Below, piece after piece: positions 7,026-28,215 of a stretch of DNA of 37,146 bases (position 1 is the stretch's first letter; every line of letters begins with the position of its first letter). Origin of the DNA: an uncultured Olsenella sp. (GTDB lineage Bacteria > Actinomycetota > Coriobacteriia > Coriobacteriales > Atopobiaceae). Location: NCBI GenBank assembly GCA_900314575.1, contig OMVS01000012.1:1-37146 (forward strand), read 5' to 3'. The position numbers were made by a program, and so were the translations under genes. The notes under the pieces are model-generated. The model saw only the letters and a program-made list of their open reading frames with translations, was not told where the DNA came from and searched no databases.

Positions 7026-7823
7026 CTATGGGAGCAGCGGGCCGACGAGCTCGTCGGGATCCACGACCTCGATGTTCGAGAGGCCCGCGTCCCTGAGCTC
7101 GGCCAGGTCGGTCGGGGTCGCCCACTTGTCGGTGATGAGCAGGTCGAACTCGTCGGCGCGCGCGTAGGCGAAGCCCGCCTGCTTGCTGAGCTTGGTCGAG
7201 TCCGCGAGGATCACCTTGTAGGTGGAGTGCTGCAGCATCTGCGAGTTGACGATGGCCTCCTGCAGGGTGTTGGAGGTCGCGCCCGCCTCCGCCGTGACGC
7301 CCGCGCAGCCCACGTAGCACTTGGTGGCCGTGACGCTGCGGATGTTGTTGAGGGCGAACTCGCCGGAGAGCACGCCGCGCGGCATGCGCACCTCGCCCCC
7401 GGTGACGAGGACCGTGATGCCCGGGGAGGGCGTGGCCATCGTGAGGCCGGAGACGCTGTTCGTGATGACCGACACGTCGCGCGAGGTGATCTTGCCGATC
7501 ACGTCGAGCGCCGTGGTGCTCGTGTTGACGAAGACCTGCTCGCCGTCCTCGACGAGCTCCGCCGCACGCTGCGCGATGGCTGACTTGGCGCGCTCGATCC
7601 TGTTGGTGCCCGAGAGCCCGCCTGCGTCGTCGCGGCTCATCGCCACGCCGTAGCGGCGCGAGACCAGCCCCTTGCTTTCGAGGTAGTCGAGGTCGCGCCT
7701 CGCCGTGAGGGGGGAGACCCCGAAGTGGTCCGCCAGGTCGGAGACCTGGACCTGACCGCGCGAGCGGATCAGCTCCTCCATGCTGGCCCTGCGCCTCTCG
7801 ACGAACGCCCTGCTCTGTCCCAT
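7026..7823 (-). CDS. DeoR-family transcriptional regulator (UlaR-like by context)
   Basis: A 265-residue regulator with an N-terminal DeoR winged helix (about residues 5-60, including VSDLADHFGVSPLTARRDLDYLESKG) and a C-terminal sugar-phosphate-sensing domain. The latter contains the family's VITNS, GG and LADSTKL elements and the ADEFDLLITD stretch. DeoR proteins usually repress a neighbouring sugar operon until a phosphorylated sugar binds. It is divergent from the ascorbate PTS operon, as expected for UlaR, the DeoR-type ascorbate repressor of enterobacteria; that assignment is by context. ATG 7823 is chosen because a GAGGGGGGGGG site lies just upstream. The upstream region has inverted repeats likely used for autoregulation. 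The stop codon lies in a 10-bp palindrome (7017-7026), and no clear terminator separates it from proA. Confidence 0.88.
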   Translation of the reverse strand: MGQSRAFVERRRASMEELIRSRGQVQVSDLADHFGVSPLTARRDLDYLESKGLVSRRYGVAMSRDDAGGLSGTNRIERAKSAIAQRAAELVEDGEQVFVNTSTTALDVIGKITSRDVSVITNSVSGLTMATPSPGITVLVTGGEVRMPRGVLSGEFALNNIRSVTATKCYVGCAGVTAEAGATSNTLQEAIVNSQMLQHSTYKVILADSTKLSKQAGFAYARADEFDLLITDKWATPTDLAELRDAGLSNIEVVDPDELVGPLLP

Positions 7824-7895
7824 CAGAACCCCCCCCCTCGTAGAACCCCGGGCCGATCCCTGCTGAGGGCGCCGAGCGAACAATCCGAACTATGC

Positions 7896-8090: not shown

Positions 8091-8132
8091 GTTCATTATG
8101 AACGTAGCTTTCGTCGTTCAAACGTTCAGAAC
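8091..8132. promoter_or_regulatory. Cluster of GTTCA/TGAAC half-sites before the PTS operon
   Basis: GTTCA-TTA-TGAAC (8091-8103) is a 13-base palindrome. It is followed by GTTCA at 8116-8120 and GTTCAGAAC at 8124-8132. A possible -10 (TAGTAT, 8075-8080) lies just upstream of the first palindrome, without a good -35, so repressor binding here could block transcription. The same half-site forms a palindrome upstream of the transaldolase gene (25507-25523). Confidence 0.5.
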
Positions 8133-8193
8133 GATATGTAAAGTACCTTATGCCGGTAAGGAGCTCGGAGGAGCTCTACAGAAGGGAGAGGGC

Positions 8194-8658
8194 ATGCTTC
8201 TTAAGCAGCTGTACGAGCAGGGGCACTGCAACCTGGTGGACGGGCCGCTCGAGTGGAAGGAGGCCCTCCTGGAGGGCATCAAGCCCCTCATCGCGGATGG
8301 CTCCGTCGACCCCGAGTACGGTGACTGCCTGATCGAGAACGTCGAGAAGCACGGCCCCTACATCGTCCTCATGCCGGGCGTCGCCATGCCGCACGCCATG
8401 GAGAACGCCCGCGGCACCAACCGCGACGCCATCAGCTTCATGCGCGTCAAGGAGCCGGTCCATTTCGAGGACCCCGCCAACGAGGACACCGACGCCACCA
8501 TCTTCTTCACGCTGAGCGACACCGACCCCGACGAGCACCTCAAGAGCATGCAGCGCCTCGCGCAGGTGCTCTCCAACGAGGAGGTCGTCGAGCGCCTCAA
8601 GAAGATCGAGAGCACGGAAGAGCTGCTCGAGATCGACGCCATGGTCGGCGACGAGTAG
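8194..8658 (+). CDS. ulaC: PTS ascorbate-family EIIA component
   Basis: A 154-residue cytosolic EIIA domain of the mannitol/ascorbate type. It takes phosphate from HPr and passes it to EIIB. The phosphorylated histidine is His67 in the GVAMPHAM segment, and the SFMRVKEPVHFED and DEHLKSMQRLAQVLSN stretches are typical. The start is ATG 8194, preceded by AGAAGGGAGAGGG. An in-frame ATG at 8098 would add 32 residues, but those would overlap the operator cluster. A short hairpin (8161-8176) with GGAG in its loop lies just upstream of the ribosome site. It is the first gene of an operon with EIIC, EIIB, a propeller-like protein and UlaG; that context supports ascorbate as substrate. Confidence 0.87.
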   Translation: MLLKQLYEQGHCNLVDGPLEWKEALLEGIKPLIADGSVDPEYGDCLIENVEKHGPYIVLMPGVAMPHAMENARGTNRDAISFMRVKEPVHFEDPANEDTDATIFFTLSDTDPDEHLKSMQRLAQVLSNEEVVERLKKIESTEELLEIDAMVGDE

Positions 8659-8724
8659 GCGGACGCGCGACAGAGAGCCTATTTGGGGCAAACGGGTTGC
8701 CCTGGAGATAGAGAGAGGAACAGC

Positions 8725-10332
8725 ATGGACATTTTGTTGGCAGGGGTGAACTGGTTCTCTTCGACCATTCTCTCCCAACCGGCCTGGATCATCGGCTTCA
8801 TCGTCGTGATCGGCTACGCCCTGCTCGGCAAGCACTGGTACGAGGTCCTCGCGGGCTTCATCAAGGCCTCCGTGGGCTACATGATCCTGCAGGTCGGTTC
8901 CGCGGGCCTGACCAACTCCTTCCGCCCGGTCATCGTCGGCCTGAAGGAGCGCTTCAACCTGACCGCTATGGTCATCGACCCCTACTTCGGCAACAACGCC
9001 GTCGACGCGGGCGTCAAGGCGGCCGCTGCCGGCGACTTCTCCCTCGCTGACGTCTCCTTCCTCCAGGGCGCGAACATCTCGCAGTACATGCTCCTGCTGC
9101 TGTTCGCCTACATCCTCAACATCGCGCTGGTCGCCTTCAAGAACAAGACCAAGATGCGCGCCATCTTCACCACGGGCAACGTCCAGGTCCAGCAGGCCGC
9201 TACCGCCCTGTGGCTCATCATGTTCTGCTTCCCCCAGCTCGCCTCCGGCCCCGCCCTCTTCGTCATGACCCTCCTCCTCGGCCTCTACTGGGCCGTCGGC
9301 TCCAACCTCACGGTCGGCCCGACCCAGGAGCTCACTGACGGCGCCGGCTTCTCCATCGGCCACCAGCAGATGTTCGGCATCTTCTTCGCGTCCAAGGTCG
9401 CCGGCTGGATGGCTCGCCGCGACGCCAAGAAGCAGGCCAAGAACCCCGAGAAGCACTCCGTCTTCGACAAGCGCCTCGAGGACATCGAGCTGCCCGGCTG
9501 GCTGTCCATGTTCAACGAGAACATGGTCTCCACGGCCATCCTGATGACCATCTTCTTCGGCATCATCCTGTGCGTCATCGGTCCGGACTTCCTGATCAAG
9601 CTGACCGCCGACAAGCAGCTCACCGGCAACGCCGCGCTGACCCCCGGCAAGGACTTCTTCTTCTACGTCCTCTACAACTGCTTCCAGTTCGCCGTCTACC
9701 TGACGATCCTCCAGCTGGGCGTCCGCACCTTCGTCGCCGAGCTCACCACCTCCTTCCAGGGCATCTCCTCCAAGCTGATCAAGGGCTCCGTCCCCGGCGT
9801 CGACTGCGCCGTCACCTTCGGCTTCGGCTCCACCAACGCCGTCACCATCGGCTTCATGGCCGGTGCCGTGGGCCAGTTCCTCGCCATCGGCGCGCTGCTG
9901 CTCATGCACTCCCCGGTCCTCGTGGTCGCCGGCTTCGTGCCCCTGTTCTTCGACAACGCCGTCATCGGCGTCTACGCCAACAACAAGGGTGGCCTCAAGG
10001 CCTGCCTGATCCTCCCGTTCATCTGCGGCCTCTGCCAGGTCTTCGGCTCCGCCCTCATCGCCTCCTGGGTCCAGATGTACGCCTTCGGCGGCTACCTCGG
10101 CATGTTCGACTGGGCTACCATCTGGCCGCTCTTCACGGTCATCATGAAGTACCTCGGCTGGATCGGCGTGGCCATCGTCGCCGTCATCCTCATCGTCATC
10201 CCGCAGCTCCAGTACAAGGCCGCCCCGAAGGACGAGAACGGCAACAGCACCTACTTCCTCGAGGTCGAGGACTACGACAAGTACAAGGAGTACGCGGCCA
10301 AGGCCGAGGCTTCCGCCGAGAAGGCTGAGTAG
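8725..10332 (+). CDS. ulaA: PTS ascorbate-family EIIC permease
   Basis: A 535-residue polytopic membrane protein of the EIIC-GAT (SgaT/UlaA) family, the channel that moves ascorbate across the membrane during phosphorylation. It has around eleven hydrophobic segments, the GFGSTNAVTIGFMAG segment and the PLFFDNAVIGVYANNKGG stretch characteristic of UlaA-like proteins. It is longer than the roughly 465-residue enterobacterial UlaA, partly from a charged cytosolic C-terminal tail (about the last 35 residues) and a charged loop near residues 225-255. ATG 8725 has an AGAGAGGAA site. The codons end almost uniformly in C, suggesting strong expression. The gap to EIIA is 66 bases. Substrate is inferred from family and from UlaG in the same operon. 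Confidence 0.92.
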   Translation: MDILLAGVNWFSSTILSQPAWIIGFIVVIGYALLGKHWYEVLAGFIKASVGYMILQVGSAGLTNSFRPVIVGLKERFNLTAMVIDPYFGNNAVDAGVKAAAAGDFSLADVSFLQGANISQYMLLLLFAYILNIALVAFKNKTKMRAIFTTGNVQVQQAATALWLIMFCFPQLASGPALFVMTLLLGLYWAVGSNLTVGPTQELTDGAGFSIGHQQMFGIFFASKVAGWMARRDAKKQAKNPEKHSVFDKRLEDIELPGWLSMFNENMVSTAILMTIFFGIILCVIGPDFLIKLTADKQLTGNAALTPGKDFFFYVLYNCFQFAVYLTILQLGVRTFVAELTTSFQGISSKLIKGSVPGVDCAVTFGFGSTNAVTIGFMAGAVGQFLAIGALLLMHSPVLVVAGFVPLFFDNAVIGVYANNKGGLKACLILPFICGLCQVFGSALIASWVQMYAFGGYLGMFDWATIWPLFTVIMKYLGWIGVAIVAVILIVIPQLQYKAAPKDENGNSTYFLEVEDYDKYKEYAAKAEASAEKAE

Positions 10333-10405: not shown

Positions 10406-10430
10406 GTCCGGGCCCCGACGGGGCCCGGAC
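10406..10430 (+). other. Intercistronic GC hairpin between EIIC and EIIB
   Basis: A perfect 11-bp stem (10406-10416 with 10420-10430) has a 3-base loop and no T tract, in the 133-base gap between the EIIC and EIIB genes. It resembles an mRNA-stabilising or partial-termination element more than a full terminator. Confidence 0.6.
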
Positions 10431-10465
10431 TCAGATGGGGCCAAGCCCCAGAAAGGATGTCAACC

Positions 10466-10771
10466 ATGGCAACCAAGATCCTGTGCGCCTGCGCGAACGG
10501 CTCCGGCACCTCCCTGATGATGCAGATGGCGGTCGAGCGCGTCGCCAAGAAGCTCAACCTCAAGGATCCCAAGGTCCACCACTGCGCGCTGGCCGAGGGT
10601 ACCTCTACTGCCAAGACCTATGACATCGTCTGCTTCCCGCGCAACTTCGAGAACATGTTCGCCGACGCCAAGGCCGCCGGCATCATCACCGTGCCGCTGA
10701 AGAACGTCATGAGCGACAAGGAGATCGAGGAGAAGTTCCTCGAGGCCGGCGTCGACAAGAAGTTCGCCTAA
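10466..10771 (+). CDS. ulaB: PTS ascorbate-family EIIB component
   Basis: A 101-residue cytosolic EIIB of the lactate/ascorbate/galactitol fold. The phosphocysteine loop CANGSGTS is at residues 9-16, with Cys9 the expected phosphorylated residue; a second cysteine (Cys7) sits just before it. It carries phosphate from EIIA to the incoming sugar on EIIC. The start at ATG 10466 is chosen over ATG 10457 because the AAAGGA ribosome site gives proper spacing only to the former. Length agrees with UlaB (about 100 residues). It follows a GC hairpin and precedes the propeller-like gene by 44 bases, in the same operon. Confidence 0.92.
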   Translation: MATKILCACANGSGTSLMMQMAVERVAKKLNLKDPKVHHCALAEGTSTAKTYDIVCFPRNFENMFADAKAAGIITVPLKNVMSDKEIEEKFLEAGVDKKFA

Positions 10772-10815: not shown

Positions 10816-11868
10816 ATGAACTACCAGAAGCACGTTCTCGCGACTGACATGGTCAAGTGCTACGCCGTCTGCATGTTCGACGGCGCCGACACCAACGGCT
10901 TCGTCGTCGCTACGGAGAAGGAAGGGCCGATGCGCCGCTTCACCCTCGACGGCAAGGTCATCGAGGACGTCAACGAGGGCCCCGGCGGCGTCATGACCGT
11001 CACGCAGGCCCCCGGCAGGGGCGACCAGCTGATGGCCACCTACAAGTTCTTCTCGCCCAACTTCGGCGCGGACGACGCCAAGATCGTCACCTGGACGCGC
11101 CAGGCGGACGGCACCTGGAAGATGTCGGTCGTCTGCGACCTGCCCTACGTGCACCGCTTCGGCGTCCTCAAGGGCGCCGACGGCCAGGACTGGCTCATCG
11201 CCTGCACCATCAAGAGCGAGTGCCGCCAGTTCAAGAACGACTGGCGCGACCCCGGCGCGGTCTACGTCGCGCCGCTCGACGGCGACCTCGAGCGCTATGA
11301 CGAGGACCACCAGCTGCAGCTCACGAAGATTGCGAACTACCAGCTCCAGAACCACGGCTTCTACATGGCTCCGGACCGCAGCTTCGCCCTCGTGGGCACC
11401 GCCGCCGGCGTCTTCCGCTACACGGCGCCCGAGACGCGCGACGGCGCGTGGGACGTCCGCTGCCTCCTCGTGCAGCCCACGAGCGACATGTGCCTCGTGG
11501 ACCTCGACGGCGACGGCAAGGACGAGGTCGTGACCATCTCCACCTTCCATGGCGACACGCTCTCCGTGTGGCACGCCACCGAGAACGAGGACAGCTACGA
11601 GAAGGTCTGGGAGGACCCGGAGAAGCGTCCGTTTCTGCACGCAATCTGGTCTGGTGACCTCGCCGGCAAGCCCAGCGCGGTGCTCGGCAACCGCAAGGGC
11701 GGCCGTGACCTCATGCGCCTCGGCTACGAGGACGGCGCCTACGCCGTGGAGATCATCGACCACGACTGCGGCCCCGCCAACTGCTGGGTCTTCAACGACG
11801 GCCAGGACCACATCATCTCGGCCAACCGCGAGACCAACGAGGTCGCCCTCTACGACGTGACCGCCTAG
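10816..11868 (+). CDS. Beta-propeller-like (FG-GAP/VCBS-type) cytosolic protein of unknown function in the ula operon
   Basis: A 350-residue soluble protein without signal peptide or membrane segment. The sequence is built of repeating beta-strand units with W/F/V-rich blades. One repeat holds a Ca2+-type loop, LVDLDGDGKDEVV (about residues 226-238), as in FG-GAP/VCBS propellers. It also has several cysteines and His-containing turns (for example NHGFYMAP and HDCGP near the C-terminus). I do not recognise a characterised family. It sits between EIIB (44-base gap) and ulaG (63-base gap), all co-directional, with a strong GAGGTGAGAG site before ATG 10816, so it is very likely cotranscribed. A role in handling ascorbate-6-P or its lactone is possible (propeller lactonases and isomerases exist), but this is inference only. 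Confidence 0.7.
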   Translation: MNYQKHVLATDMVKCYAVCMFDGADTNGFVVATEKEGPMRRFTLDGKVIEDVNEGPGGVMTVTQAPGRGDQLMATYKFFSPNFGADDAKIVTWTRQADGTWKMSVVCDLPYVHRFGVLKGADGQDWLIACTIKSECRQFKNDWRDPGAVYVAPLDGDLERYDEDHQLQLTKIANYQLQNHGFYMAPDRSFALVGTAAGVFRYTAPETRDGAWDVRCLLVQPTSDMCLVDLDGDGKDEVVTISTFHGDTLSVWHATENEDSYEKVWEDPEKRPFLHAIWSGDLAGKPSAVLGNRKGGRDLMRLGYEDGAYAVEIIDHDCGPANCWVFNDGQDHIISANRETNEVALYDVTA

Positions 11869-11881: not shown

Positions 11882-11908
11882 CCCGCCCCCGGTCGCCCCG
11901 GGGGCGGG
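11882..11908 (+). other. Intercistronic GC hairpin before ulaG
   Basis: A perfect 11-bp stem (11882-11892 with 11898-11908) has a 5-base loop and no T tract, between the propeller-like gene and ulaG. The ulaG ribosome site follows 12 bases later. Confidence 0.6.
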
Positions 11909-11931: not shown

Positions 11932-13050
11932 ATGTCCGCTATTGACGAGGTAACCCGCGAGAAGTGGATCATGAACACGTTCCCCGAGTGGGGCACGTGG
12001 CTCAACGAGGACATCGAGAACGCCGTGGTCCCCGAGGGCAACGTCAAGATGTGGTGGCTCGGTTGCACCGGCATGTGGGTCAAGACCCCCGGTGACGCCA
12101 ACATCACCATCGACCTGTGGACCGGCAACGGCAAGCGCACCCACGGCAACGGCCTCATGAAGGTCGGCCACCAGATGGCCAACATGGCCGGCGTCCGCGC
12201 CATGCAGCCCAACCTGCGCAACATCCCCTACGTCTTCGACCCCTTCGCCTTCAAGCACGTCGACGCCGTCCTCGCCACCCACTACCACCAGGACCACATG
12301 TCCAAGGAGTGGGCCGCCCACGTCGTCAACTCCGGCATGACCACCACCGACGAGAACGGCAACGAGGTCCCCGTGCCGTTCATCGGCCCGGAGAAGTCTG
12401 CCGAGTTCTGGCGCAGCTGGGGCGTCCCCGAGGACCGCATCAAGGTCGTCAAGCCCGGTGACAAGATCAAGATCAAGGACATGACCATCGTGGCCATGGA
12501 CTCCTTCGACCGCACCTGCATCACCACCACCGACTCCACCGGTCCCGACCGCGAGGACCTGGCCGGCAAGTGCCCGACCGACATGGACGAGAAGGCCGTC
12601 AACTACCTGCTCGTCACCCCGGGCGGCAACATCTACCACTCCGGCGACTCCCACTACTCCATCTACTTCGCGAAGCACGGCAAGGACATCATGAAGGAGT
12701 ACGGCGGCGTGGACGTCTGCTTCGGCTCCTACGGCTGCAACCCGGTCGGCATCCAGGACAAGATGGAGGCCACCGACATCCTGCGCATGGCCGAGGCGCT
12801 GCAGGCCAAGGTCGTCATCCCCATCCACTGGGACGTCTGGACCAACTTCATGGCCGACCAGCGCGAGATCGAGGTCCTCTACCAGATGCGCAAGGACCGT
12901 CTCGGCTACACCTTCCACCCGTACTACTGGCAGCCCGGCGGCGACTACACGTACCCCCTCGACAAGGACAAGAAGGAGTACATGTACGACCGCGGCTTCC
13001 ACGACTGCTTCGAGCACGAGCCCAACGTGCCGTTCCGCTCCGTCCTCTAG
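11932..13050 (+). CDS. ulaG: L-ascorbate-6-phosphate lactonase (UlaG)
   Basis: A 372-residue metallo-beta-lactamase-fold enzyme that hydrolyses L-ascorbate-6-P to 3-keto-L-gulonate-6-P. It matches E. coli UlaG over its full length. It shares the N-terminal TFPEWG-WLN, the MWWLGCTG strand, the metal-binding HYHQDH (His117, His119, Asp121, His122), the WGVP segment, YHSGDSHYS, and a C-terminal GGDYTYPLDKDKKEY block. It is cytosolic. ATG 11932 has AAGGAG upstream. It is the last gene of the PTS operon and is followed by a very strong terminator. Together with EIIABC it defines the operon as ascorbate-specific, but the decarboxylase that should use its product (UlaD) is not beside it. Confidence 0.94.
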   Translation: MSAIDEVTREKWIMNTFPEWGTWLNEDIENAVVPEGNVKMWWLGCTGMWVKTPGDANITIDLWTGNGKRTHGNGLMKVGHQMANMAGVRAMQPNLRNIPYVFDPFAFKHVDAVLATHYHQDHMSKEWAAHVVNSGMTTTDENGNEVPVPFIGPEKSAEFWRSWGVPEDRIKVVKPGDKIKIKDMTIVAMDSFDRTCITTTDSTGPDREDLAGKCPTDMDEKAVNYLLVTPGGNIYHSGDSHYSIYFAKHGKDIMKEYGGVDVCFGSYGCNPVGIQDKMEATDILRMAEALQAKVVIPIHWDVWTNFMADQREIEVLYQMRKDRLGYTFHPYYWQPGGDYTYPLDKDKKEYMYDRGFHDCFEHEPNVPFRSVL

Positions 13051-13080
13051 GACCGTCGAGCCAGGGCGACTACCAGGCCA

Positions 13081-13121
13081 GGGGGCCGGTCGCGGCAGCA
13101 GCCGCGACCGGCCCCCTTTTT
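13081..13121 (+). terminator. Strong rho-independent terminator after ulaG
   Basis: A perfect 16-bp GC-rich stem (13081-13096 with 13101-13116) with a 4-base loop is followed directly by five T. This is the clearest intrinsic terminator in the window and marks the end of the PTS-ulaG operon. Confidence 0.95.
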
Positions 13122-13232: not shown

Positions 13233-14036
13233 ATGCCAGCTGGAGCAGGGACGTTCGAGGAGGGGGAGGTGCGCCCTGCCCCCAAGCGCGGGGGGAGCGA
13301 CATCTCGGACGAGATAGTGGTGCTTCCCAAGTCCGAGGACGAGACGAGCCTGGAATACGCCTACCGCGTACTCAGGTACAACATCCTCATGTACAAGATG
13401 CCGCCCGGCGCCCAGCTCAGGGAGACGGCCGTCGCGCAGAAGCTCGGCCTCTCCAAGATGCCGGTGCACCAGGCCGTGGCCAGGCTGCGCGAGCAGCTCC
13501 TCGTCGACGTCGTCCCGCAGAGCGGCACCAACATCTCGCGCATCAACGTGAGCGCGATGCGGCAGGGTTCGCTGCTCCGGACCGACGTCGAGGCCCAGAC
13601 CCTCTTCCGCATGGCTGGCAGGCTCCCGAGCAGCTACATCGTGCGCCTGAGCCAGTGCTTGGACGAGCAGCGCAGCACGCTCGAGGCCACCCCGCTCGAC
13701 ATCTTCCGCCTCGCGAGCCTAGACGACGAGTTTCATCGCATCGTCTTCGAGGGGTCGGGGCTCGAGTTTACCTGGCGCATGGTGCGGGCCGCCTCGACGC
13801 ACTACGACCGAGTGCGCTTCATGGGGCTCGTCTACGGCTTCGACGACCCCTATACCTTCTACCGCGACCACGAGGACCTCGCCAAAAGGCTCGCCTTCGG
13901 CACGCGCCTCACGAAGGACCAGCTCTACACCTTCATCTATGGGCACCTCAACCACTTCGTGGACTTCTGGGACCAGATGGTGGAGCAGCACCCCGACTAC
14001 TTCGACTTCGGGCCCGTCCCAGGGGACGCGGTCTAG
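13233..14036 (+). CDS. GntR-family (FCD-like) transcriptional regulator
   Basis: A 267-residue regulator. A poorly conserved leader (about residues 1-38) is followed by a GntR winged helix-turn-helix (about 40-105: YRVLRYNIL, LRETAVAQKLGLSKMPVHQAVARLREQ, then a wing with SGTNISRI). An all-helical C-terminal ligand domain (about 110-250) contains DDEFHRIVFEGSG and a GHLNHFVDFW helix typical of FCD domains, which bind small organic acids or sugar acids at a metal site. ATG 13233 follows a GGTGAGAG site; a -10-like TATGCT lies at 13161-13166. It stands between the ula operon and the long ABC/pentose operon. A 12-bp GntR-type palindrome (14237-14248) in the downstream gap makes the latter its likely target. 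Confidence 0.85.
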   Translation: MPAGAGTFEEGEVRPAPKRGGSDISDEIVVLPKSEDETSLEYAYRVLRYNILMYKMPPGAQLRETAVAQKLGLSKMPVHQAVARLREQLLVDVVPQSGTNISRINVSAMRQGSLLRTDVEAQTLFRMAGRLPSSYIVRLSQCLDEQRSTLEATPLDIFRLASLDDEFHRIVFEGSGLEFTWRMVRAASTHYDRVRFMGLVYGFDDPYTFYRDHEDLAKRLAFGTRLTKDQLYTFIYGHLNHFVDFWDQMVEQHPDYFDFGPVPGDAV

Positions 14037-14236
14037 GACGAGCCGGTGGAGGTGCTGTAAACCTATAGCCGGGCACCCAAATGACGCGAGTTTCGTACCT
14101 TTGATATTCCAGATGGAAAAACTCTCTTGAGGAGAGAGCTACGGGTCCCCCCCGCGAGGGGTCTCCCGATGCCATTTCTACAGCCTGTCCGGGTTCTGGC
14201 CAAGGCGCGAGCCCTGTTAGAATCTCAGGAACACAA

Positions 14237-14248
14237 AGGTTATAACCT
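14237..14248. promoter_or_regulatory. Perfect 12-bp palindrome, candidate GntR operator
   Basis: AGGTTATAACCT is a perfect palindrome containing GGT-TATA-ACC, the general shape of FadR/FCD-family operators. It contains TATAAC, a possible -10 hexamer, and lies about 200 bases after the GntR gene stop. Confidence 0.55.
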
Positions 14249-14416
14249 ATGCCAGGCAGTTCTCCGCATCGATGCGCCCGTCCGCCGGAGTAACATTGAG
14301 CAAACAAAAATATCACTTGTCCAAACAGCACTACACGAACAAAGAGTCGACCGCAGATTGCCGTCAAGGGTCAGTCCGTTTAGCCCGAAAAAACAGCCGT
14401 TTACGCAAGCGGACTC

Positions 14417-14434
14417 AAAGTGATATTTCACTTT
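14417..14434. promoter_or_regulatory. Perfect 18-bp palindrome, candidate operator
   Basis: AAAGTGA-TATT-TCACTTT has two perfect 7-bp arms around four bases. An upstream copy of one arm in context (AAATATCACTT, 14308-14318) is complementary to 14418-14428, about 110 bases apart. Such spaced sites would suit a looping repressor. The binding protein is unknown; the motif differs from the GTTCA sites and from the 14237 palindrome. Confidence 0.6.
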
Positions 14435-14528
14435 TGTGCCGACTATGAAAACATAAGAAGTTGACGGGAGGTCCTGACGCCCCCCGCGCGTGCATCCCAA
14501 GGAGCCACGACGGCAAGGGGATAAGACC

Positions 14529-15452
14529 ATGGCCCAGGAGATCCTCCCTTCTGCGCACCTGCTCGAGATGTTCAACCCCTACATGCACGATGAGGCCCGC
14601 ATGATCGAGGTGCTCCGGAAGACCGTGAGCCTCGGGTTCTACCGGGCCGTCGAGCTGCCCGTGTTCTTCGACGCCGCCAACCGCTCTGCCGTGCGAGCGA
14701 CCATCGAGGGGGAGCGTCTCCTCGGGACCACCTTCGCAGGCCCCTATCTCGCGGCCCGCGGCCTCAGCCTCTCGGACATGGACGAGGGCGCCCGCAGGCG
14801 CGCCGTCGCCCTTGCCGTGCAGCTCGCTGACTACGCGGCGGAGTCCGGGATGCGCAACCTCTGCGTGGCCAGTGGCCCCGACCCCGCGCCCGAGCTGCGC
14901 GGGCTCGCGAAGGTTGCCCTCGCGGACTCGATGGTCGCGCTGGCCGACCATGCCCGCGATCTGGGCCTCAACCTCACCATCGAGCCACTGGACCGCAATG
15001 CCCACAAGCGTCAGCTCATCGGTCCCATGGAGGAGGCGGTCACCTGGTTCGCGCCCATACACGACCGCTGCCCCAACGCCTACATCCACTGGGACAGCGC
15101 GCACGAGGCCCTGGGCGGCATCGACCTCATGCGGTCGCTCGATCTCGCCTCCCCCTACCTCGCGCAGCTCCACCTCTGCGACGCGATCCTGGACCCGGCG
15201 CACCCCTGCTTCGGCGACCTGCACATGGACTGCGCCCTGGCGCCCGGCTGGGAGACCGAGGGCTTCCTCACGCCCGAGGTCGGTGCGCGGATCCTCTCCA
15301 GGGTCGCCTCCTTCGACACGCCCGCGGGGGTGAGCGCCGTGTGCGCCTCCGTCGAGATCCACGGCCACCCCGGTGACCACCTCTGGCTCATTGAGGAGCA
15401 TGCCCGCAGCTTCTTGCGACGCTGCTTCGACCTGGCGGGGGTCGGGGCCTAG
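14529..15452 (+). CDS. Sugar (phosphate) isomerase/epimerase, xylose-isomerase-like TIM barrel
   Basis: A 307-residue protein of the AP-endonuclease-2/xylose-isomerase-like barrel family. The residues that bind the divalent metal in this fold are visible: Glu152 in TIEPLDRN, Asp189 and His192 in HWDSAHE, a histidine in QLHLCD, and a glutamate in SVEIHGH near the C-terminus. It is therefore likely an active epimerase or isomerase on a ketose, ketose phosphate or related compound. ATG 14529 is chosen because AAGGGG lies 8 bases upstream; a GTG at 14490 has no better site. It leads the ABC operon (123 bases before the binding protein) and is distinct from the UlaE-like barrel further downstream. 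Exact substrate unknown. Confidence 0.8.
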   Translation: MAQEILPSAHLLEMFNPYMHDEARMIEVLRKTVSLGFYRAVELPVFFDAANRSAVRATIEGERLLGTTFAGPYLAARGLSLSDMDEGARRRAVALAVQLADYAAESGMRNLCVASGPDPAPELRGLAKVALADSMVALADHARDLGLNLTIEPLDRNAHKRQLIGPMEEAVTWFAPIHDRCPNAYIHWDSAHEALGGIDLMRSLDLASPYLAQLHLCDAILDPAHPCFGDLHMDCALAPGWETEGFLTPEVGARILSRVASFDTPAGVSAVCASVEIHGHPGDHLWLIEEHARSFLRRCFDLAGVGA

Positions 15453-15575
15453 CCCCGGCTCGCGACGGGTCCCGCGCCTGGTGCACGCCGCGCCGCCGCG
15501 GTCCTTATCGGCAGGACGTTAATACGGGTACGTGCTTGTCCTCTGGGCACCCCGTCTGTAGAGAAGGGAACGTGT

Positions 15576-16622
15576 ATGGACAGGAGAACGTTTCTGACGG
15601 CCGCCGCAGCTGCCCCCCTGGCGCTGGGCACCCTCGCGGGATGCACCTTCGAGAAGGTCGACCGCACGGGAGGCGGTGGGTCCGGCGCCGTGGCGGCGGG
15701 CTCCAGCAACAAGGTGACGGTCGACCCGTACAACGCCGAGAACCAGATCAGGATCGCCTACGTCGCGCACGACCTCTCCACCCCCAACAACCAGGCGTGG
15801 CTCGAGGGCATCCAGCGCGAGTGCTCGTCGTGGGACAACATCACCATCGACTCCTTCAACGGCGAGTCCTCGGCCGAGACACAGGTCACGCTGATGGCCG
15901 ACATCATCAACCAGCAGTACAACGCCGTCATCCTGCAGTGCTCCGACGGCGCGGCGCTCGCCTCGTCGGTCGCCCAGGCAGAGTCCGCGGGTATCCCCGT
16001 CATCACGCTCAACCTCGACTGCTCTTCCGACACTGTCCACAGCGCGCTCGTGATGGCCGTCGACTACGACGCCGGACGCCTCGCCGCCGAGAAGATGGCC
16101 GAGCAGATGGGCGAGAAGGGCGGCGTCGCCATCATCCAGGGCGTGCCTGGCCTGACCCGCACCGACAACCTCGAGCGCGGCTTCCGCGACACGATTGCCA
16201 ACTACCCCGGCATCACCATCGTCGGCGCCAACAGCGCGGCCTTCGAGAAGGAGAAGGCGAGGACGGTCATGGAGGCCTTCATGCAGCAGTACGACGGCAT
16301 GACCGGCGTCTTCTGCATCAACGATGCAATGGCCGAGGGTGCGGCGCTCGCCGCGGACAACGCGGGCAAGCGCGGCAAGTACATCATCTGGGGAGCCGAC
16401 GGCGAGTCCGACGCCCTCACGATGATCGAGAACGGGCAGATGAGCGGCACGATCTACACCAACAGCTGGGACGAGGGCTCCACCGCCGCGAAGATCGCAC
16501 TGCTCATGATCGGCTCCGAGTACAACTACACGGTGCTCACCAAGACCCCGCAGGTCGTCATGGAGCCGATCGTCGTCACCGCGGAGACCGTGGGGAGCAT
16601 CTCGCAGGAGGACCGCTGGTAG
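15576..16622 (+). CDS. Sugar-binding lipoprotein of a ribose-type ABC importer
   Basis: A 348-residue solute-binding protein of the periplasmic-binding-protein-like I (ribose/galactose, CUT2) type. The N-terminus has a Tat-like RRTFL motif, a hydrophobic stretch, and the lipobox LAGC with Cys23, so it should be exported folded and anchored as a lipoprotein. A Gly/Ser-rich linker follows. The mature part contains the family's ADIINQQYNAVILQ, AGIPVITLN and GAD-ES segments and the hinge pattern of two alternating domains. GAAGGGAA precedes ATG 15576. It is followed by permease, ATPase and second permease genes. The ligand is not readable from sequence; the downstream kinase and epimerases suggest a five- or six-carbon sugar or sugar acid. 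Confidence 0.88.
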   Translation: MDRRTFLTAAAAAPLALGTLAGCTFEKVDRTGGGGSGAVAAGSSNKVTVDPYNAENQIRIAYVAHDLSTPNNQAWLEGIQRECSSWDNITIDSFNGESSAETQVTLMADIINQQYNAVILQCSDGAALASSVAQAESAGIPVITLNLDCSSDTVHSALVMAVDYDAGRLAAEKMAEQMGEKGGVAIIQGVPGLTRTDNLERGFRDTIANYPGITIVGANSAAFEKEKARTVMEAFMQQYDGMTGVFCINDAMAEGAALAADNAGKRGKYIIWGADGESDALTMIENGQMSGTIYTNSWDEGSTAAKIALLMIGSEYNYTVLTKTPQVVMEPIVVTAETVGSISQEDRW

Positions 16623-16659
16623 GGCCTGGGCACACCGATCGACAAGAGAGGAGCAAGGG

Positions 16660-17693
16660 ATGAAACAAGCAACGCTCAGGCGCCTGATCTCCATAGGCAT
16701 GCTCTTGGTGCTGGTCGTGCTCTTCACGATCCTGAGTGGCATGTCCTTCCTTAACTCTACGAACCTCATCAACATCCTGCGCGACGCCTCGGTCGTCGCG
16801 ATCGTCGGCGTCGGCGTGACCTACGTGATCATCACGTCCGGCATCGACCTCTCGACGGGCGCCATCATGGCCGTGGTCGGCATGGTGATGGCTAACGTCT
16901 ACGCGTACACGCTCTGGCCCATCCCGGTGATGCTGCTCATCGGCGTCGCCGTGGGCCTCGTCTGCGGCCTCGTCAACGGCTTCATCGTCGGCAAGCTCCA
17001 CGTACCCGAGTTCATCGCGACCCTGGCGACGATGAGCATCTACCGCTCGTTCACCTACATCATCGCGGTCCGCGACGCCAACGGCGTCATCCAGAGCCAG
17101 CCGATGGTCGTCCGCGACTTCACGGTCTTCGGTGGGGCGATGTGGCTCGGCGGCGTCATCGGGCCCTTCTACATCGTGACCTCGGCCGCGCTCGTGTTCA
17201 TCATCGTCGGCCAGATCGTGCTCAAGCTCACGCACTTCGGCACCAACCTCTACTCCGTCGGTGCGAGCAAGAAGGCGGCGACCCTCTCGGGCATCAGCAT
17301 CTCCAAGACGCAGATCATCGCCTACGTGGTCGTAGGCTTCTGCGCGGCGATCGGCTCGATCTTCACCATCGCGCGCCTGCAGTCGGCGACGACCTCCATC
17401 GGCCTCGGCTTCGAGTTCGACCCCATCGCCGCGGCGGTCATAGGCGGCGTGTCGCTCGCGGGTGGCAGCGGCGACGTCATCGGCATGGCAATCGGCGCGA
17501 TCTTCATGGCGGCGCTCGACAACGGCGTCCTGAAGCTCGGAGTCAACACGGCGGTCCAGTACATCATCAAGGGCGCGGTCATCATCGCCGTCGTCATCTT
17601 CGACGCCGTCTACAAGAAGGTCATGGACAAGCGCGCGAAGGCGCGCGGCGCCGGGGCCGTCCCGGCGGTCGAGACGGAGAAAGGGGTGGCGGC

Positions 17694-17697
<4 letters not shown>
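16660..17697 (+). CDS. Ribose-type ABC transporter permease (first)
   Basis: A 345-residue integral membrane protein of the RbsC/CUT2 family with eight to ten hydrophobic helices. Family hallmarks include TSGIDLSTGAIMA in the first third, NGFIVGKLHVPEFIATL, a YSVGASKKAATLSGI cytosolic coupling segment, and GGVSLAGGSGDVIG near the C-terminus. It forms the channel with the second permease encoded at 19217. GAGAGGAGCAAGGG precedes ATG 16660, 37 bases after the binding-protein gene. Its stop codon overlaps the ATPase start (ATGA at 17694-17697), indicating translational coupling. Two different permeases flanking the ATPase imply a heterodimeric channel. Confidence 0.92.
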
Positions 17698-19216
<1,519 letters not shown>

Positions 19217-19220
<4 letters not shown>

Positions 19221-20230
19221 GGGGGAAGTTCAGTTTCAACACCTACAGCAAGCCCATCATTCTCATAGCGTTCATCGTCGTCCTGTGGCTCCTCGCGGGC
19301 AGCAACTTCATGAACGTCTCCAACATCGGGTCGGTCCTGAACTCGGTGTCCGTCATCGGCATCATGGTCTGCGGCACGATCTTCGTCTTCCTGATCGGCG
19401 GCATCGACCTCTCGATCGGCGCGTTGCTCGGCCTCACCGGCGTCGTCTGCGTCGAGGTCATCAACGCCCTGGGGGCGACGCCGGGCTCCGTCTTTGTCGG
19501 CATCCTCGCCGCGGTGGCGGTCGGCGCGCTCGCAGGCCTCTTCCACGGCTTCATCGTCACGACCTTCAATATCCCGGCGTTCCTCGTCACGTTTGCGACC
19601 CAGACCGCGTTCACGGGCATGTCCATGGTGATCACGGGCAACAAGATCGTCAGCTGCACGCAGCCGCCCCTGTTCACCGGCATCGCCGCGACCAAGATCC
19701 TCATGCTGCCGCTGCCCATCTACTTCATGCTCCTGATGGCGCTCATCAGCTGGTTCGTCCTGCGCAGGACCGTCTTCGGACGCCAGATCTACGCCGTGGG
19801 TGGCAACCCCACCGCGGCCGAGATCTCGGGCATCAACGTCAAGGGCCGCTCCATCGCCTGCTACGTGCTGTCCGGCGTGGCGGCCGCCATCGGTGGCGTC
19901 GTCCTCGCGTCCATGAACCAGCAGGGCATGGCCTCACAGGGTGCGGACTACGTGAACTCGGTGATCACCGCCGGCGTCATCGGCGGCGTGAGCCTGCTCG
20001 GCGGCGAGGGCACCGTGCCCGGCGCCATGTACGGCACCGTGCTCATGGGCCTGCTCACCAACGGCCTCAACCTGATGGGCGTAGACTCGACGCAGGCGGG
20101 CCTCGTGACTGGCGTCGTGACGATCGCCGCCGTGGCGCTCGACGCGGCCCAGCACCTCGACCAGTCCAAGAGGAAGGCTGGCGGGCTCTTTGCGGGGCTC
20201 ACGAAGAGAAAGGACGTGGCTGCATCATGA
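19217..20230 (+). CDS. Ribose-type ABC transporter permease (second)
   Basis: A 337-residue membrane protein of the RbsC family, paralogous to the permease at 16660. It has the GGIDLSIGALLGL segment, HGFIVTTFNIPAFLVT, the YAVGGNPTAAEISGINV coupling loop and GGVSLLGGEGTVPGA. It should pair with the first permease. Its start overlaps the ATPase stop, and its stop overlaps the start of the amidohydrolase gene (ATGA 20227-20230). The chain of three four-base overlaps from 17694 to 20230 ties the amidohydrolase to the transporter at the translational level. Confidence 0.92.
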
Positions 20231-21135: not shown

Positions 21136-21145
21136 CGGCGCGCCT

Positions 21146-21173: not shown

Positions 21174-21237
21174 CCAACCCCGCAGCAAGGATGAGGTCCC
21201 TCGCGCCCGCTTGGGCCGGGGCCGGAAAGGAACGGCC

Positions 21238-22230: not shown

Positions 22231-22243
22231 GGGGAGAGGTGCC

Positions 22244-23822: not shown

Positions 23823-24536
23823 ATGATGCTCAAGGAGCTTCGTGAAAAGGTGTACGAGGCCAACATGGACCTGCCCAAGCACGGGCTGGTCGTCTTCACC
23901 TGGGGCAACGCCTCGGAGATCGACCGCGACAAGGGCCTGTTCGTGATCAAGCCCTCCGGCGTGGACTACGACGAGCTCAGCCCCGAGAACATGGTCGTGT
24001 GCGACCTCGACGGCAAGGTCGTCGAGGGCGACCTCAACCCGTCCAGCGACACCGCGACCCACGCCTACCTCTACAGGAGCTGGGAGAAGGTCGGCGGCAT
24101 CGTCCACACTCACTCCAGCGCGGCGGTGAGCTGGGCGCAGGCCGGCCGTGACATCCCGTGCTACGGCACGACGCAGGCGGACTACTTCTACGGCGCCGTC
24201 CCCTGCATGCGCGGCCTGACCGAGGAGGAGATCGAGGAGGCCTACGAGCTCAACACCGGCAAGGTCATCGTTGAGGGCTTCGAGGGCAAGGACCCCGTCG
24301 CCCTGCCCGGCTGCCTCGTGCGCAACCACGGTCCGTTCTCCTGGGGCAAGGACGCCGCCGCGGCCGTCTACCACGCCGTCGTGATGGAGCAGGTCGCCAC
24401 CATGGCGCTGCACACCGAGCAGATCTGCGCCACCGCCGGCAAGCCGATCGAGGAGGCCCTGGCCCCGCAGTACCTCCTCGACAAGCACTACATGCGCAAG
24501 CACGGCCCCAACGCCTACTACGGACAGAAGAAGTAG
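23823..24536 (+). CDS. ulaF: L-ribulose-5-phosphate 4-epimerase (UlaF/AraD type)
   Basis: A 237-residue class II aldolase-fold enzyme converting L-ribulose-5-P to D-xylulose-5-P. The N-terminal TWGNAS, KPSG and SSDTATH motifs, the zinc ligands His95 and His97 (HTHS) with a third histidine in RNHGPF near residue 170, and the C-terminal [16 protein letters not shown] tail are all as in AraD/UlaF/SgbE (about 230 residues). Two ATGs are adjacent (23823 and 23826); both suit the GGAGGGAG site at 23808-23815. The gene lies between lyxK and ulaE, which favours the UlaF/SgbE role over arabinose catabolism; no araA or araB is present. Confidence 0.9.
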
Positions 24537-24570
24537 CCAGGGACCACATCGAACACCACGTTGGCAGGGA

Positions 24571-24606
24571 GGGGCGCCGGACGGTCGAGCGAGCGTCCGG
24601 CGCCCC
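24571..24606 (+). other. Intercistronic GC hairpin between ulaF and ulaE
   Basis: A perfect 13-bp stem (24571-24583 with 24594-24606) closes a 10-base loop, followed by one C and only three T. It may terminate a fraction of transcripts; the ulaE ribosome site follows at once. Confidence 0.6.
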
Positions 24607-24629
24607 CTTTGCAAGGAGGGAGCCAAGAC

Positions 24630-25490
24630 ATGAGCAAGTCCTACAAGCTCGGACTGTACGAGAAGGCCACCCCGCAGGAGCTCGGCTGGGAGGAGCGCCT
24701 CCAGGTGGCGGCCGAGTGCGGCTTCGACTACATGGAAATCTCCGTCGACGAGTCCGACGCCCGCCAGGCGCGTCTCGACTGGACGCCGGCCGAGCGCCAG
24801 GAGGTCATCCAGGCGATGCGCAACACGGGGGTGCCCCTGGGCTCCATGTGCCTCTCCGGCCACCGCAAGTGGCCCTTCGGCGCGAAGGACCCCGCCAAGC
24901 GCGCGAGGAGCCTCGAGATGATGGACAAGGCCCTCGACCTCGCCTGCGACCTCGGGCTGCACGTGATCCAGCTCGCCGGCTACGACGCCTACTACGACGA
25001 GGACAAGTGGGACGGCTCCGAGGCGTGCTTCGCCGAGAACCTCGCCCGTGCGACCGAGATGGCCGCCGAGGCGGGCGTCGTGATGGGCTTCGAGACCATG
25101 GAGACCCCCTTCATGGACACCGTCGCCAAGGCCATGCACTACGTCGACCTCATCAACAGCCCCTTCCTCGGCGTCTACCCCGACGTGGGCAACCTCACCA
25201 ACGCCTCGCTGCTCTACGGCGTGTCCGTCGCGGACGACGTCGCCACGGGCGCGGGCCACATCTTCGCCGCGCACCTCAAGGCGACGCGCGCCGGCCAGTA
25301 CCGCGACATGCTCTTCGGCGAGGGGACGACCGACTACGAGGGCGGCCTGAGCCAGCTCGTCCCGCAGGGCGTGCGCCGTTACGTCTGCGAGATGTGGTAC
25401 CTCGGCTCGCCCAGCTGGAAGGAGGACGTCGCCCACGCCTCCGAGTTCGCCCGCGCCAAGGTCGACGCGGCGATGGCGGCTCTCGCGTAG
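24630..25490 (+). CDS. ulaE: L-xylulose-5-phosphate 3-epimerase (UlaE type)
   Basis: A 286-residue xylose-isomerase-like TIM barrel converting L-xylulose-5-P to L-ribulose-5-P. It aligns along its whole length with E. coli UlaE (284 residues): LGLYEKATP, MEISVDESDARQARLDW, SMCLSGHRKWPFG, VIQLAGYDAYY, YPDVGNL, HLKATR and CEMWYLG. The metal-binding Glu, Asp, His and Glu of the barrel are all present. It is cytosolic. ATG 24630 has a strong AAGGAGGG site. It follows ulaF, and the two epimerases together turn L-xylulose-5-P into D-xylulose-5-P. The order kinase, 4-epimerase, 3-epimerase is compatible with either the ascorbate or the L-xylulose branch. Confidence 0.93.
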   Translation: MSKSYKLGLYEKATPQELGWEERLQVAAECGFDYMEISVDESDARQARLDWTPAERQEVIQAMRNTGVPLGSMCLSGHRKWPFGAKDPAKRARSLEMMDKALDLACDLGLHVIQLAGYDAYYDEDKWDGSEACFAENLARATEMAAEAGVVMGFETMETPFMDTVAKAMHYVDLINSPFLGVYPDVGNLTNASLLYGVSVADDVATGAGHIFAAHLKATRAGQYRDMLFGEGTTDYEGGLSQLVPQGVRRYVCEMWYLGSPSWKEDVAHASEFARAKVDAAMAALA

Positions 25491-25614: not shown

Positions 25615-26301
25615 ATGAAGTTCTTCATCGACACCGCCGACCTGGACGAGATCCGCGAGGCCCAGAGCTGGGGCATCCTCTCTGGCGTCACCACCAACCC
25701 CTCCCTGTACGCCAAGACCGGCGGCAAGCTCGCCGACTTCGAGGACCACATGGTCAAGATCTGCGAGATCTGCGACGGTCTGCCCGTCTCCGCCGAGTCC
25801 ACGGCCGAGACCACCGAGGCCATGATCGAGGAGGCCGAGCACCTCGCCTCCCTCGCGCCCAACATCGTGGTCAAGCTCCCGGTCTGCGAGGCCTCCCTGC
25901 CGGCGACCCACCACCTCGCCAAGGAGGGCATCCGCGTCAACATGACGCTGGTCTTCTCCGCCCCGCAGGCCCTTCTCGCCGCCCGCGCTGGCGCGCGCTA
26001 CATCTCGCCGTTCGTCGGTCGCTTCGACGACATCGCTGAGGACGGCCTGGAGCAGCTCAACACCGTCGTGACCGCCGTCAAGAACTACAGCTACGGCTAC
26101 TGGGACGAGGAGGGCGGCCCGGAGATCATCACCGCCTCCGTCCGCACCCCTAACCACGTGACCCAGGCCGCGCTCATGGGCGCCGACATCGCCACCGTGC
26201 CGTTCGGCGCGCTCAAGAAGTGCGTCCATCACCCGCTGACCGACCAGGGCCTCGAGAGGTTCGCGGCCGACTGGGCGAAGGTCACCGGCGAGGCCAAGTA
26301 G
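25615..26301 (+). CDS. Transaldolase, small TalC/FSA-type
   Basis: A 228-residue class I aldolase of the small transaldolase family. FIDTADLDEI at the N-terminus, GVTTNPSL, the Schiff-base lysine Lys87 in IVVKLPV, NMTLVFSAPQALLAARAGA, and a YISPFVGR loop are characteristic. It exchanges dihydroxyacetone units between sugar phosphates; some relatives are fructose-6-P aldolases instead, and the two are hard to separate by eye. ATG 25615 follows AAAGGACAAGGG. It is placed directly upstream of both transketolase subunits and rpe, so transaldolase in the non-oxidative pentose phosphate pathway is the more likely role. Confidence 0.88.
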   Translation: MKFFIDTADLDEIREAQSWGILSGVTTNPSLYAKTGGKLADFEDHMVKICEICDGLPVSAESTAETTEAMIEEAEHLASLAPNIVVKLPVCEASLPATHHLAKEGIRVNMTLVFSAPQALLAARAGARYISPFVGRFDDIAEDGLEQLNTVVTAVKNYSYGYWDEEGGPEIITASVRTPNHVTQAALMGADIATVPFGALKKCVHHPLTDQGLERFAADWAKVTGEAK

Positions 26302-26428: not shown

Positions 26429-27271
26429 ATGGCGGAAGGGACGGCAGCCCCCGACTTCCAGGAGCTCGCTCGGATCGCCCGACGCGTGCGCCAACAGATC
26501 GTCATCGGCGTGCACGCGGCCAAGTCCGGACACCCCGGCGGCTCGCTCGGCGCGGCTGACATCATGACCTACCTGTACTTCCACGAGATGAACGTGGACC
26601 CCAAGAACCCGCGCGACCCCAAGCGCGACAGGTTCGTCCTCTCCAAGGGCCACTGTGCGCCCGCCCTCTACGGCACCCTCGCCGAGCGCGGCTTCTTCCC
26701 CGTGGAGGACATCCCCACGCTGCGCCACGTCGGCAGCCACCTGCAGGGCCACCCCAACATGAACGACACGCCCGGCGTCGACATGTCCACCGGCTCGCTC
26801 GGACAGGGCGTCTCCGCCGCCGTGGGCATGGCGCTGGCCGCCAAGCTCTGGGGCGACGACTACCGCACCTACACCCTGCTCGGCGACGGCGAGATCCAGG
26901 AGGGCCAGGTCTGGGAGGCTGCGATGTTCGCTGGTAGCCACCACCTGGACAACCTCTGCGTGATCGTGGACAACAACAACCTGCAGATCGACGGCACCAT
27001 CGAGCAGGTCAACTCGCCCTATCCCATCGCAGACAAGTTCCGCGCCTTCAACTTCCATGTGATCGAGGTCGCGGACGGCAACGACATGACGCAGCTTGCC
27101 CCCGCCTTCGAGGAGGCCAGGCAGACCAAGGGCGCGCCCACGGCCATCGTCTGCAAGACGGTCAAGGGCAAGGGCGTCTCCTTCATGGAGAACCAGGTCG
27201 GCTGGCACGGCAAGGCACCCAACGACGAGCAGTTCGAGCAGGCCATGGCCGAGCTCGCTGGAGAGGAGTAG
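26429..27271 (+). CDS. Transketolase, N-terminal (TPP-binding) subunit
   Basis: A 280-residue protein equal to the first third of a full transketolase. It contains SGHPGGSLGAADI, SKGHCAPALYGTL, STGSLGQG and the thiamine-diphosphate motif GDGEIQEGQVWEAAMF ending in DNNN. The C-terminal half is encoded by the next gene two bases later. Split transketolases of this kind are normal in many anaerobes and archaea, so this is not a frameshift: both parts have their own start, ribosome site and stop. It transfers two-carbon units from D-xylulose-5-P, the final product of the upstream UlaE/UlaF steps. ATG 26429 follows GAAGGGAG. Confidence 0.94.
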   Translation: MAEGTAAPDFQELARIARRVRQQIVIGVHAAKSGHPGGSLGAADIMTYLYFHEMNVDPKNPRDPKRDRFVLSKGHCAPALYGTLAERGFFPVEDIPTLRHVGSHLQGHPNMNDTPGVDMSTGSLGQGVSAAVGMALAAKLWGDDYRTYTLLGDGEIQEGQVWEAAMFAGSHHLDNLCVIVDNNNLQIDGTIEQVNSPYPIADKFRAFNFHVIEVADGNDMTQLAPAFEEARQTKGAPTAIVCKTVKGKGVSFMENQVGWHGKAPNDEQFEQAMAELAGEE

Positions 27272-27273
27272 CC

Positions 27274-28215
27274 ATGGCAGACGTCAAGAAGGTCGCAACG
27301 CGCCAGAGCTACGGCGAGGAGCTCGTCGAGCTCGGCAAGGAGCACGACGACTTCGTGGTGCTCGACGCCGACCTCGCGGCCGCTACCAAGACCGGCCTGT
27401 TCAAGGCCGCCTTCCCCGACCGCCACGTCGACTGCGGCATCGCCGAGCAGGACCTCATGGGCATCGCGGCGGGCATCGCCGCCGCCGGCCACACAGTCTT
27501 CGCGAGCTCGTTCGCGATGTTCGCCGCCGGCCGCGCCTTCGAGCAGGTCAGGAACTCCATCGGCTACCCGCACCTCAACGTTAAGATCGGCGCGACCCAC
27601 GCCGGCCTCTCCGTCGGCGAGGACGGCGCCACCCACCAGTGCTGCGAGGACATCGCGCTCATGAGGACCATCCCGGGGATGACGGTCATCGTGCCGTCCG
27701 ACGACGTGGAGGCCCGCGCCGCGACCCGCGCCGCCTACGAGATGGACGGCCCCGTCTACCTGCGCTTCTGCCGCCTCGCCACGCCGGTCGTCAACGACCG
27801 CCCCGACTACGACTTCAAGGTCGGCAAGGCCTACGTCCTGCGCGAGGGCACCGACGTCACCATCGTGGCCTGCGGCCTCATGGTCGAGCAGGCGCTCGAG
27901 GCCGCCCGCCAGCTCGAGGCCTCCGGCGTGTCCGCCGAGGTCATCAACGCCCCGACCGTGAAGCCGCTCGACGCCGAGACGATCGTCGCCTCCGCGCGCA
28001 AGACGGGTAGGGTCGTCACCGCCGAGGAGCACTCGGTGATCGGCGGCCTCGGCTCGGCCGTGTGCGACGTCCTCTCCGAGCAGCACCCCGTGCCGGTCAG
28101 GAAGGTGGGCGTCGAGGACACCTTCGGCGAGTCCGGTCCGGCCGTCGAGGTCCTCAAGAAGTACGGCCTCACCGCCGAGCACGTCGCCGAGGCGGCCCTC
28201 TCGCTCGTCAAGTAG
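27274..28215 (+). CDS. Transketolase, C-terminal subunit
   Basis: A 313-residue partner of the preceding gene, carrying the pyrimidine-binding and C-terminal transketolase domains. The catalytic glutamate is in DCGIAEQDLMGIAAG, followed by a FAMFAAGRAFEQ segment, THAGLSVGEDGATHQ, and a C-terminal EEHSVIGGLG motif. The two subunits should form a heterotetramer with the TPP site at the interface. It begins two bases after the stop of the first subunit, with the ribosome site GGAGAGGAG inside the end of that gene, so translation is coupled. A branched GC hairpin follows before rpe. Confidence 0.94.
   Translation: MADVKKVATRQSYGEELVELGKEHDDFVVLDADLAAATKTGLFKAAFPDRHVDCGIAEQDLMGIAAGIAAAGHTVFASSFAMFAAGRAFEQVRNSIGYPHLNVKIGATHAGLSVGEDGATHQCCEDIALMRTIPGMTVIVPSDDVEARAATRAAYEMDGPVYLRFCRLATPVVNDRPDYDFKVGKAYVLREGTDVTIVACGLMVEQALEAARQLEASGVSAEVINAPTVKPLDAETIVASARKTGRVVTAEEHSVIGGLGSAVCDVLSEQHPVPVRKVGVEDTFGESGPAVEVLKKYGLTAEHVAEAALSLVK

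Follow-up and report, generated by a model that had tools for sequence, protein, structure and literature searches.

In E. coli, L-xylulose-5-P is produced by the 3-keto-L-gulonate-6-P decarboxylase UlaD, and in a 2011 survey of ula regulons every case had the ulaABCDEF unit (PMC3219644). UlaD, which shares the model NF009832 with SgbH, has a TIM-barrel fold and belongs to the OMPDC suprafamily. SgbH is the decarboxylase of the E. coli yia/sgb route. Aldos-2-ulose dehydratase (AUDH; PDB 4a7k, 4a7y and 4a7z) is a fungal enzyme of roughly 900 residues (879-900 in the 4a7k chain) that dehydrates and isomerises its substrates, and its propeller reportedly contains a catalytic zinc, with His155 proposed as the acid/base. 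A WD40-like protein from Ralstonia eutropha is said to rearrange 2,3-diketo-L-gulonate, which suggests that propellers are capable of unusual chemistry on ascorbate products. Compared by description, it resembles the protein considered here as a propeller-type protein in ascorbate catabolism and differs in its unphosphorylated substrate and its pathway. VCBS/FG-GAP propellers carry a DxDxDG motif in the loop between strands A and B, which forms a structural cation site (PMC8023676).

The stretch of DNA analysed here, referred to as the window, comprises 37,146 nucleotides of contig OMVS01000012.1 from an uncultured Olsenella sp. and includes an ascorbate operon with the gene order IIA-IIC-IIB-X-UlaG, where X is a propeller gene (Table 1). 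The predicted 350-residue product of X, here called 'UlaX', starts at an ATG. X is a real gene: its GC3 is 0.96 vs 0.63 in an overlapping antisense ORF, and homologues in other genomes of the family and order conserve the start at 56-75% identity. Its position between ulaB and ulaG, noted in a preliminary description of this DNA, is confirmed by the flanking PTS IIB and UlaG genes, and no export signal is seen, as that description also held, because the N-terminus (MNYQKHVLATDM...) is not hydrophobic. The neighbouring DeoR-family regulator is conserved in most operons of this kind.

Table 1. Positions of the genes, motifs and signals discussed, numbered from the first nucleotide of the window
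Feature	Position	Strand	Evidence
DeoR-family regulator (UlaR-like), upstream, divergent to operon	7026..7883	-	
PTS EIIA (UlaC-like)	8098..8658	+	Pfam/NCBIfam
PTS EIIC (UlaA-like); called start TTG, may be over-extended	8683..10332	+	Pfam/NCBIfam
PTS EIIB (UlaB-like); internal ATG favoured over listed GTG at 10382	10457..10771	+	
'UlaX', seven-bladed VCBS/AUDH-like propeller, predicted 3-keto-L-gulonate-6-P decarboxylase	10816..11868	+	
HR motif, codons of invariant H113-R114	11152..11157	+	40-sequence alignment; weak HMMER alignment to 4a7k
N179-H180-G181, invariant, codons	11350..11358	+	40-sequence alignment
DxDGDGxxE loop D229-E237, putative structural cation site, blade 5 A-B loop	11500..11526	+	
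FHG motif, codons of invariant F244-H245-G246	11545..11553	+	
H275, invariant, codon	11638..11640	+	40-sequence alignment
UlaG, L-ascorbate-6-P lactonase	11932..13050	+	NF008688 581.6 bits, cut-off 306
Intrinsic terminator 3' of ulaG, ends unit: perfect 17-bp stem, then T-run	13080..13121	+	
UlaF, L-ribulose-5-P 4-epimerase	23823..24536	+	
UlaE-like 3-epimerase	24561..25490	+	
TalC-type transaldolase/F6P aldolase	25615..26301	+	
Split transketolase, N and C halves	26429..28215	+	

Two perfect GC-rich hairpins, at 10406-10430 in the IIC/IIB gap (12-bp arms) and at 11882-11908 between the propeller gene and ulaG (11-bp arms), are without T-runs and are possible mRNA stability or attenuation elements. 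Between ulaG and ulaF a second sugar-acid module has been inserted (13233-23770), which encodes a GntR regulator, a TIM-barrel isomerase-like protein, a ribose-type ABC transporter, a 2-hydroxyacid dehydrogenase and an FGGY kinase. Relatives of its TIM-barrel and FGGY genes adjoin a propeller of their own, without UlaG, at two other loci (L146 and L151).

UlaG, UlaE, UlaF, TalC and transketolase are all present in the operon and UlaD is absent, a point on which the preliminary description was silent. The downstream UlaF, UlaE-like epimerase, TalC and split transketolase are all needed after L-xylulose-5-P. No UlaD/KGPDC homologue was found in the genome of the window (96.5% complete) at E<=1e-3 with either a protein query or NF009832, and a UlaD hidden elsewhere in it was dismissed after these searches. 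A literature search for propellers tied to UlaD or UlaG returned none. The reading favoured here, with a probability of about 0.75, is that 'UlaX' is a metal-dependent propeller enzyme predicted to decarboxylate 3-keto-L-gulonate-6-P to L-xylulose-5-P, as a non-homologous replacement of UlaD.

In Clostridia and Bacilli the survey of the two genes started from UlaG, because selection on the propeller was to be avoided, and clusters with UlaG, UlaE and UlaF were counted in a tally of 52 UlaG loci. Forty such clusters were found, spread over Coriobacteriia, Clostridia, Bacilli and further phyla, 30 with the propeller only (29 distinct, L136 and L169 being the same locus), nine with UlaD only, none with both and one with neither; the last lies on a broken contig that starts inside the propeller gene (L083). 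Neither gene occurs at four UlaG loci that have PTS genes and are without UlaE and UlaF. UlaG paralogues about 44-51% identical sit at L088, L089, L090 and L091, in PTS clusters where UlaD, the propeller, UlaE and UlaF are all missing from the vicinity.

UlaG is above cut-off in 8 of 291 Clostridia, and all eight carry the propeller, one of them being the centre genome, which was picked for its propeller; none has any UlaD hit. UlaG occurs in 7 of 250 Bacilli, every one with UlaD and none with a propeller in the same cluster; six are without any propeller, and in the seventh a distant homologue lies on a separate contig. Among 398 Coriobacteriia genomes, 24 carry the propeller (from 25 hits, the one in G379 being chance), none with UlaD above the NF009832 cut-off. 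In 22 of these 24 the propeller gene lies directly upstream of a UlaG orthologue (74-98% identity), one pair being split across contigs; of the remaining two, G098 is cut off by its contig end and G312 has no UlaG at the locus. Wherever the neighbourhood of an intact Coriobacteriia copy can be read, the gene sits in the operon, which supports, like the presence of the gene in all UlaG-positive Clostridia, the role in ascorbate-6-P handling proposed earlier. At the G312 locus (L070) the propeller is intact though UlaG is absent and IIC is interrupted, the product of a deletion or an assembly fault.

Two classical-UlaD Coriobacteriia (G243 and G218) have UlaD directly after IIB in the ula operon and no propeller, and in matched operons X takes the UlaD slot: DeoR-G-A-C-B-X-F-E (L139, L174) vs DeoR-G-A-C-B-D-E-F (L086, L087, L181). 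Gene orders vary widely (E-X-F, X-G-F-E, X-E-F, G-X) and the neighbours stay constant; the arrangements include IIB-X-UlaG-UlaF-UlaE, UlaE-X-UlaF in Ruminococcaceae, UlaG-X-UlaE-UlaF and DeoR-UlaG-IIA-IIC-IIB-X-UlaF-UlaE. The association of the propeller with ula genes is independent of gene order, and like a ula regulon member it adjoins UlaG, PTS-Asc and UlaE/UlaF across lineages. In the smallest clusters it is the sole unassigned gene. On the UlaG tree about two changes account for the propeller/UlaD state, with one independent contrast on well supported branches and two on all branches. The strength of the exclusion therefore lies in the number of clusters and not in independent events; the counts describe a strict rule over many genomes rather than many independent swaps. 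In the Olsenella group, a HAD/Cof-like phosphatase gene was observed between ulaE and ulaF (L068:4099-4896, L069:10198-11208 and relatives).

The preliminary description proposed a beta-propeller and suggested structure prediction and a fold search, which bore it out. An AlphaFold2 model built on a 40-sequence alignment (mean pLDDT 94.7, pTM 0.92) forms seven blades, and fold searches with it are full of propellers. Among solved structures, the closest match is to the AUDH propeller domain (Z 34.8, rmsd 2.6 over 334 aligned residues, 12% identity); the next family follows at Z 28.1, 6.7 Z units below, and AUDH is also present among the many propellers in the Foldseek list. Gluconolactonase/SMP30 and 6-phosphogluconolactonase propellers were dismissed for their weaker fit. 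At the level of sequence the relationship is distant: no Pfam or NCBIfam model scores above its cut-off with 'UlaX' (FG-GAP reaches 18.7 bits, cut-off 22.1), and the AUDH_beta_propeller model PF22301 appears below its cut-off of 27 bits in 3 of 40 homologues, all distant members, at 20.5 bits or less. A phmmer search of PDB sequences with 'UlaX' gave no match, and further sequence searches of the PDB gave short, weak matches only.

'UlaX' shares with AUDH the seven-bladed VCBS-type propeller, the HR and FHG motifs and keto-sugar chemistry, the last by prediction. AUDH, however, has further domains and is a dehydratase and isomerase, whereas 'UlaX' is a lone bacterial propeller in an ascorbate operon; because of this domain architecture and scores below the Pfam cut-off, it is not classed as AUDH proper. 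With UlaD it shares the slot and the operon company, but there is no sequence similarity, the UlaD/KGPDC models NF009832 and NF009831 are not matched (the NCBIfam hmmscan returned zero families), and the predicted all-beta propeller is unrelated to the TIM barrel of those models. It is not classed as UlaD because the fold differs.

Six residues that may form the active site, H113, R114, H180, H245, H275 and R293, are invariant in 40 diverse homologues with identities down to 27%, as are G58, M60, D142, W143 and N179. HMMER aligns H113-R114 with H155-R156 of AUDH ('MHR') and F244-H245-G246 with F294-H295-G296 ('FHGNTVSVY'); these alignments are short and weak (domain scores of -1.8 and 6.0 bits), yet they fall on invariant positions. 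On the strand list of the model, the invariant residues lie where strand A begins (blades 2, 3, 4 and 6) or in B-C loops (blades 3, 5 and 6), positions that would form one face around the channel, and from these strand positions the histidines are predicted to converge on one site. The invariant His/Arg set looks catalytic, and to our knowledge this His set is not known in FG-GAP/VCBS propellers.

The Ca2+-type DxDGDGKDE loop reported in the preliminary description is present and conserved (D229-x-D-G-D-G-x-x-E237). It links strands 224-228 and 237-241 on the A-B side of blade 5, where VCBS/FG-GAP propellers such as integrin-like proteins and rhamnogalacturonan lyase family 11 carry theirs. 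Those propellers are mostly secreted or binding proteins, and their sequence similarity to 'UlaX' is below cut-off. The loop lies on the other face, away from the conserved site, and one homologue (L150) is without it; an active site at the loop was dismissed on both grounds. Most probably it binds a cation in a structural role, like its counterparts in other VCBS propellers.

In the proposed pathway, the PTS (IIA/IIC/IIB) would bring in ascorbate as L-ascorbate-6-P, and UlaG would open its lactone to give 3-keto-L-gulonate-6-P. The propeller would then take C1 off as CO2, and UlaE and UlaF would convert the resulting L-xylulose-5-P to D-xylulose-5-P, which with TalC and transketolase would enter the pentose-phosphate pool. 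This activity is what the genome context predicts; for the metal, the chemistry, the substrate and the roles of individual residues, we infer the following. By analogy with the catalytic zinc reported for AUDH, the invariant histidines may hold a divalent metal where the central channel opens, and this metal would polarise the C3 keto group. The C1-C2 bond would be broken to leave an enediolate, which may be protonated at C2 by H113 (aligned with His155 of AUDH) or a neighbour, and R114 and R293 may bind the carboxylate or the phosphate.

A decarboxylase is not the only activity that could be assigned to this slot. It is unlikely, but conceivable, that the propeller acts on the 3-keto-L-gulonate-6-P branch by another reaction, such as isomerisation, dehydration or rearrangement, with L-xylulose-5-P formed by another route or spontaneously. 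Its nearest structural relative is a dehydratase, and 3-keto-L-gulonate-6-P is a beta-keto acid that could decarboxylate slowly unaided, leaving the propeller with another task. The propeller, however, swaps with UlaD instead of adding to it, and it is accompanied in most clusters by UlaE and UlaF, whose substrates are L-xylulose-5-P and L-ribulose-5-P. The same one-for-one replacement, together with four His and two Arg invariant on one face, speaks against a non-enzymatic accessory that binds, senses or protects ascorbate-6-P or its oxidation products, even though the classical ula genes encode no propeller and many propellers merely bind ligands. With a DeoR regulator already in place, such an accessory is very improbable, and the earlier suggestion that the protein senses or protects an oxidisable intermediate is not supported.

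Slightly less probable again is a lactonase or mutarotase assisting UlaG. The fold list does include several sugar lactonases of the propeller type (4qrj, 3scy, 8djf), but the AUDH fit is much closer, UlaG is intact in almost all clusters, and at three loci (L146, L151 and L152) the propeller occurs where UlaG is missing. The slimmest chance is given to a diverged UlaD that decarboxylates from elsewhere in the genome, with the propeller incidental. UlaD-like genes below the family cut-off do occur in G182 (L176) and G237 (L177), and several other genomes give weak OMPDC-suprafamily hits; yet most propeller genomes, including that of the window, have no hit at E<=1e-3, and the genes of G182 and G237 lie in separate PTS clusters of their own, which probably serve another sugar-acid pathway. 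At L177, UlaE- and UlaF-like genes follow the UlaD-like gene.

An alignment-based scan of genome contigs found 42 loci, and a single-sequence scan of genome contigs found nothing; tblastn of plasmids and a scan of viral contigs returned no relative. The weak class hits L084/G379 and L085/G263:C8 were both dismissed as matches in unrelated or antisense frames. The preliminary description proposed surveying whether homologues always accompany ulaABCG, which proved too strong a statement; distant members in Tetragenococcus, Planctomycetes and some Spirochaetes lie in other sugar-acid neighbourhoods. Two clusters with an FGGY kinase, L146 (X-UlaE-FGGY-UlaF) and L151 (X-FGGY), come from genomes without UlaD and resemble the yia/sgb route. 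In Tetragenococcus halophilus (L144, L145, L149) the propeller lies beside a 2-hydroxyacid dehydrogenase and a TIM-barrel isomerase-like protein, with a galactitol-type PTS, galactonate dehydratase and KDPG aldolase; in strain G411 there is, in addition, a UlaD at another site. The neighbours at L141 are zinc-type and 3-hydroxyisobutyrate-type dehydrogenases, those at L147 a short-chain dehydrogenase and an SMP-30 lactonase, and at L152 there is an OtnK-type kinase. Members in other sugar-acid settings lie beside dehydrogenases of the 2-hydroxyacid, short-chain or zinc type and FGGY or OtnK-type kinases, which fits, without proving, a family acting on 3-keto sugar acids. Distant homologues without UlaE/UlaF indicate that the family is not confined to 3-keto-L-gulonate-6-P. 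We would give even odds that the whole family, in Actinomycetota, Bacillota, Spirochaetota and Planctomycetota, is a new class of metal-dependent propeller enzymes that decarboxylate 3-keto-aldonates and the corresponding phosphates, and that it replaced UlaD in ascorbate catabolism and also serves other sugar-acid pathways.

UlaD is missing from an entire branch of bacteria of the gut and mouth, in which the decarboxylation step is probably carried out by an unrelated fold. Annotation by known families alone would leave the propeller-bearing organisms without a complete ascorbate pathway. Many gut bacteria have an ascorbate operon without UlaD, and most likely the uncharacterised propeller found there performs the missing step. 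If so, a hole in vitamin C fermentation would be closed for Olsenella, Atopobium relatives and many Clostridia, an unannotated family would gain a function, and decarboxylation would join the chemistry of propellers.
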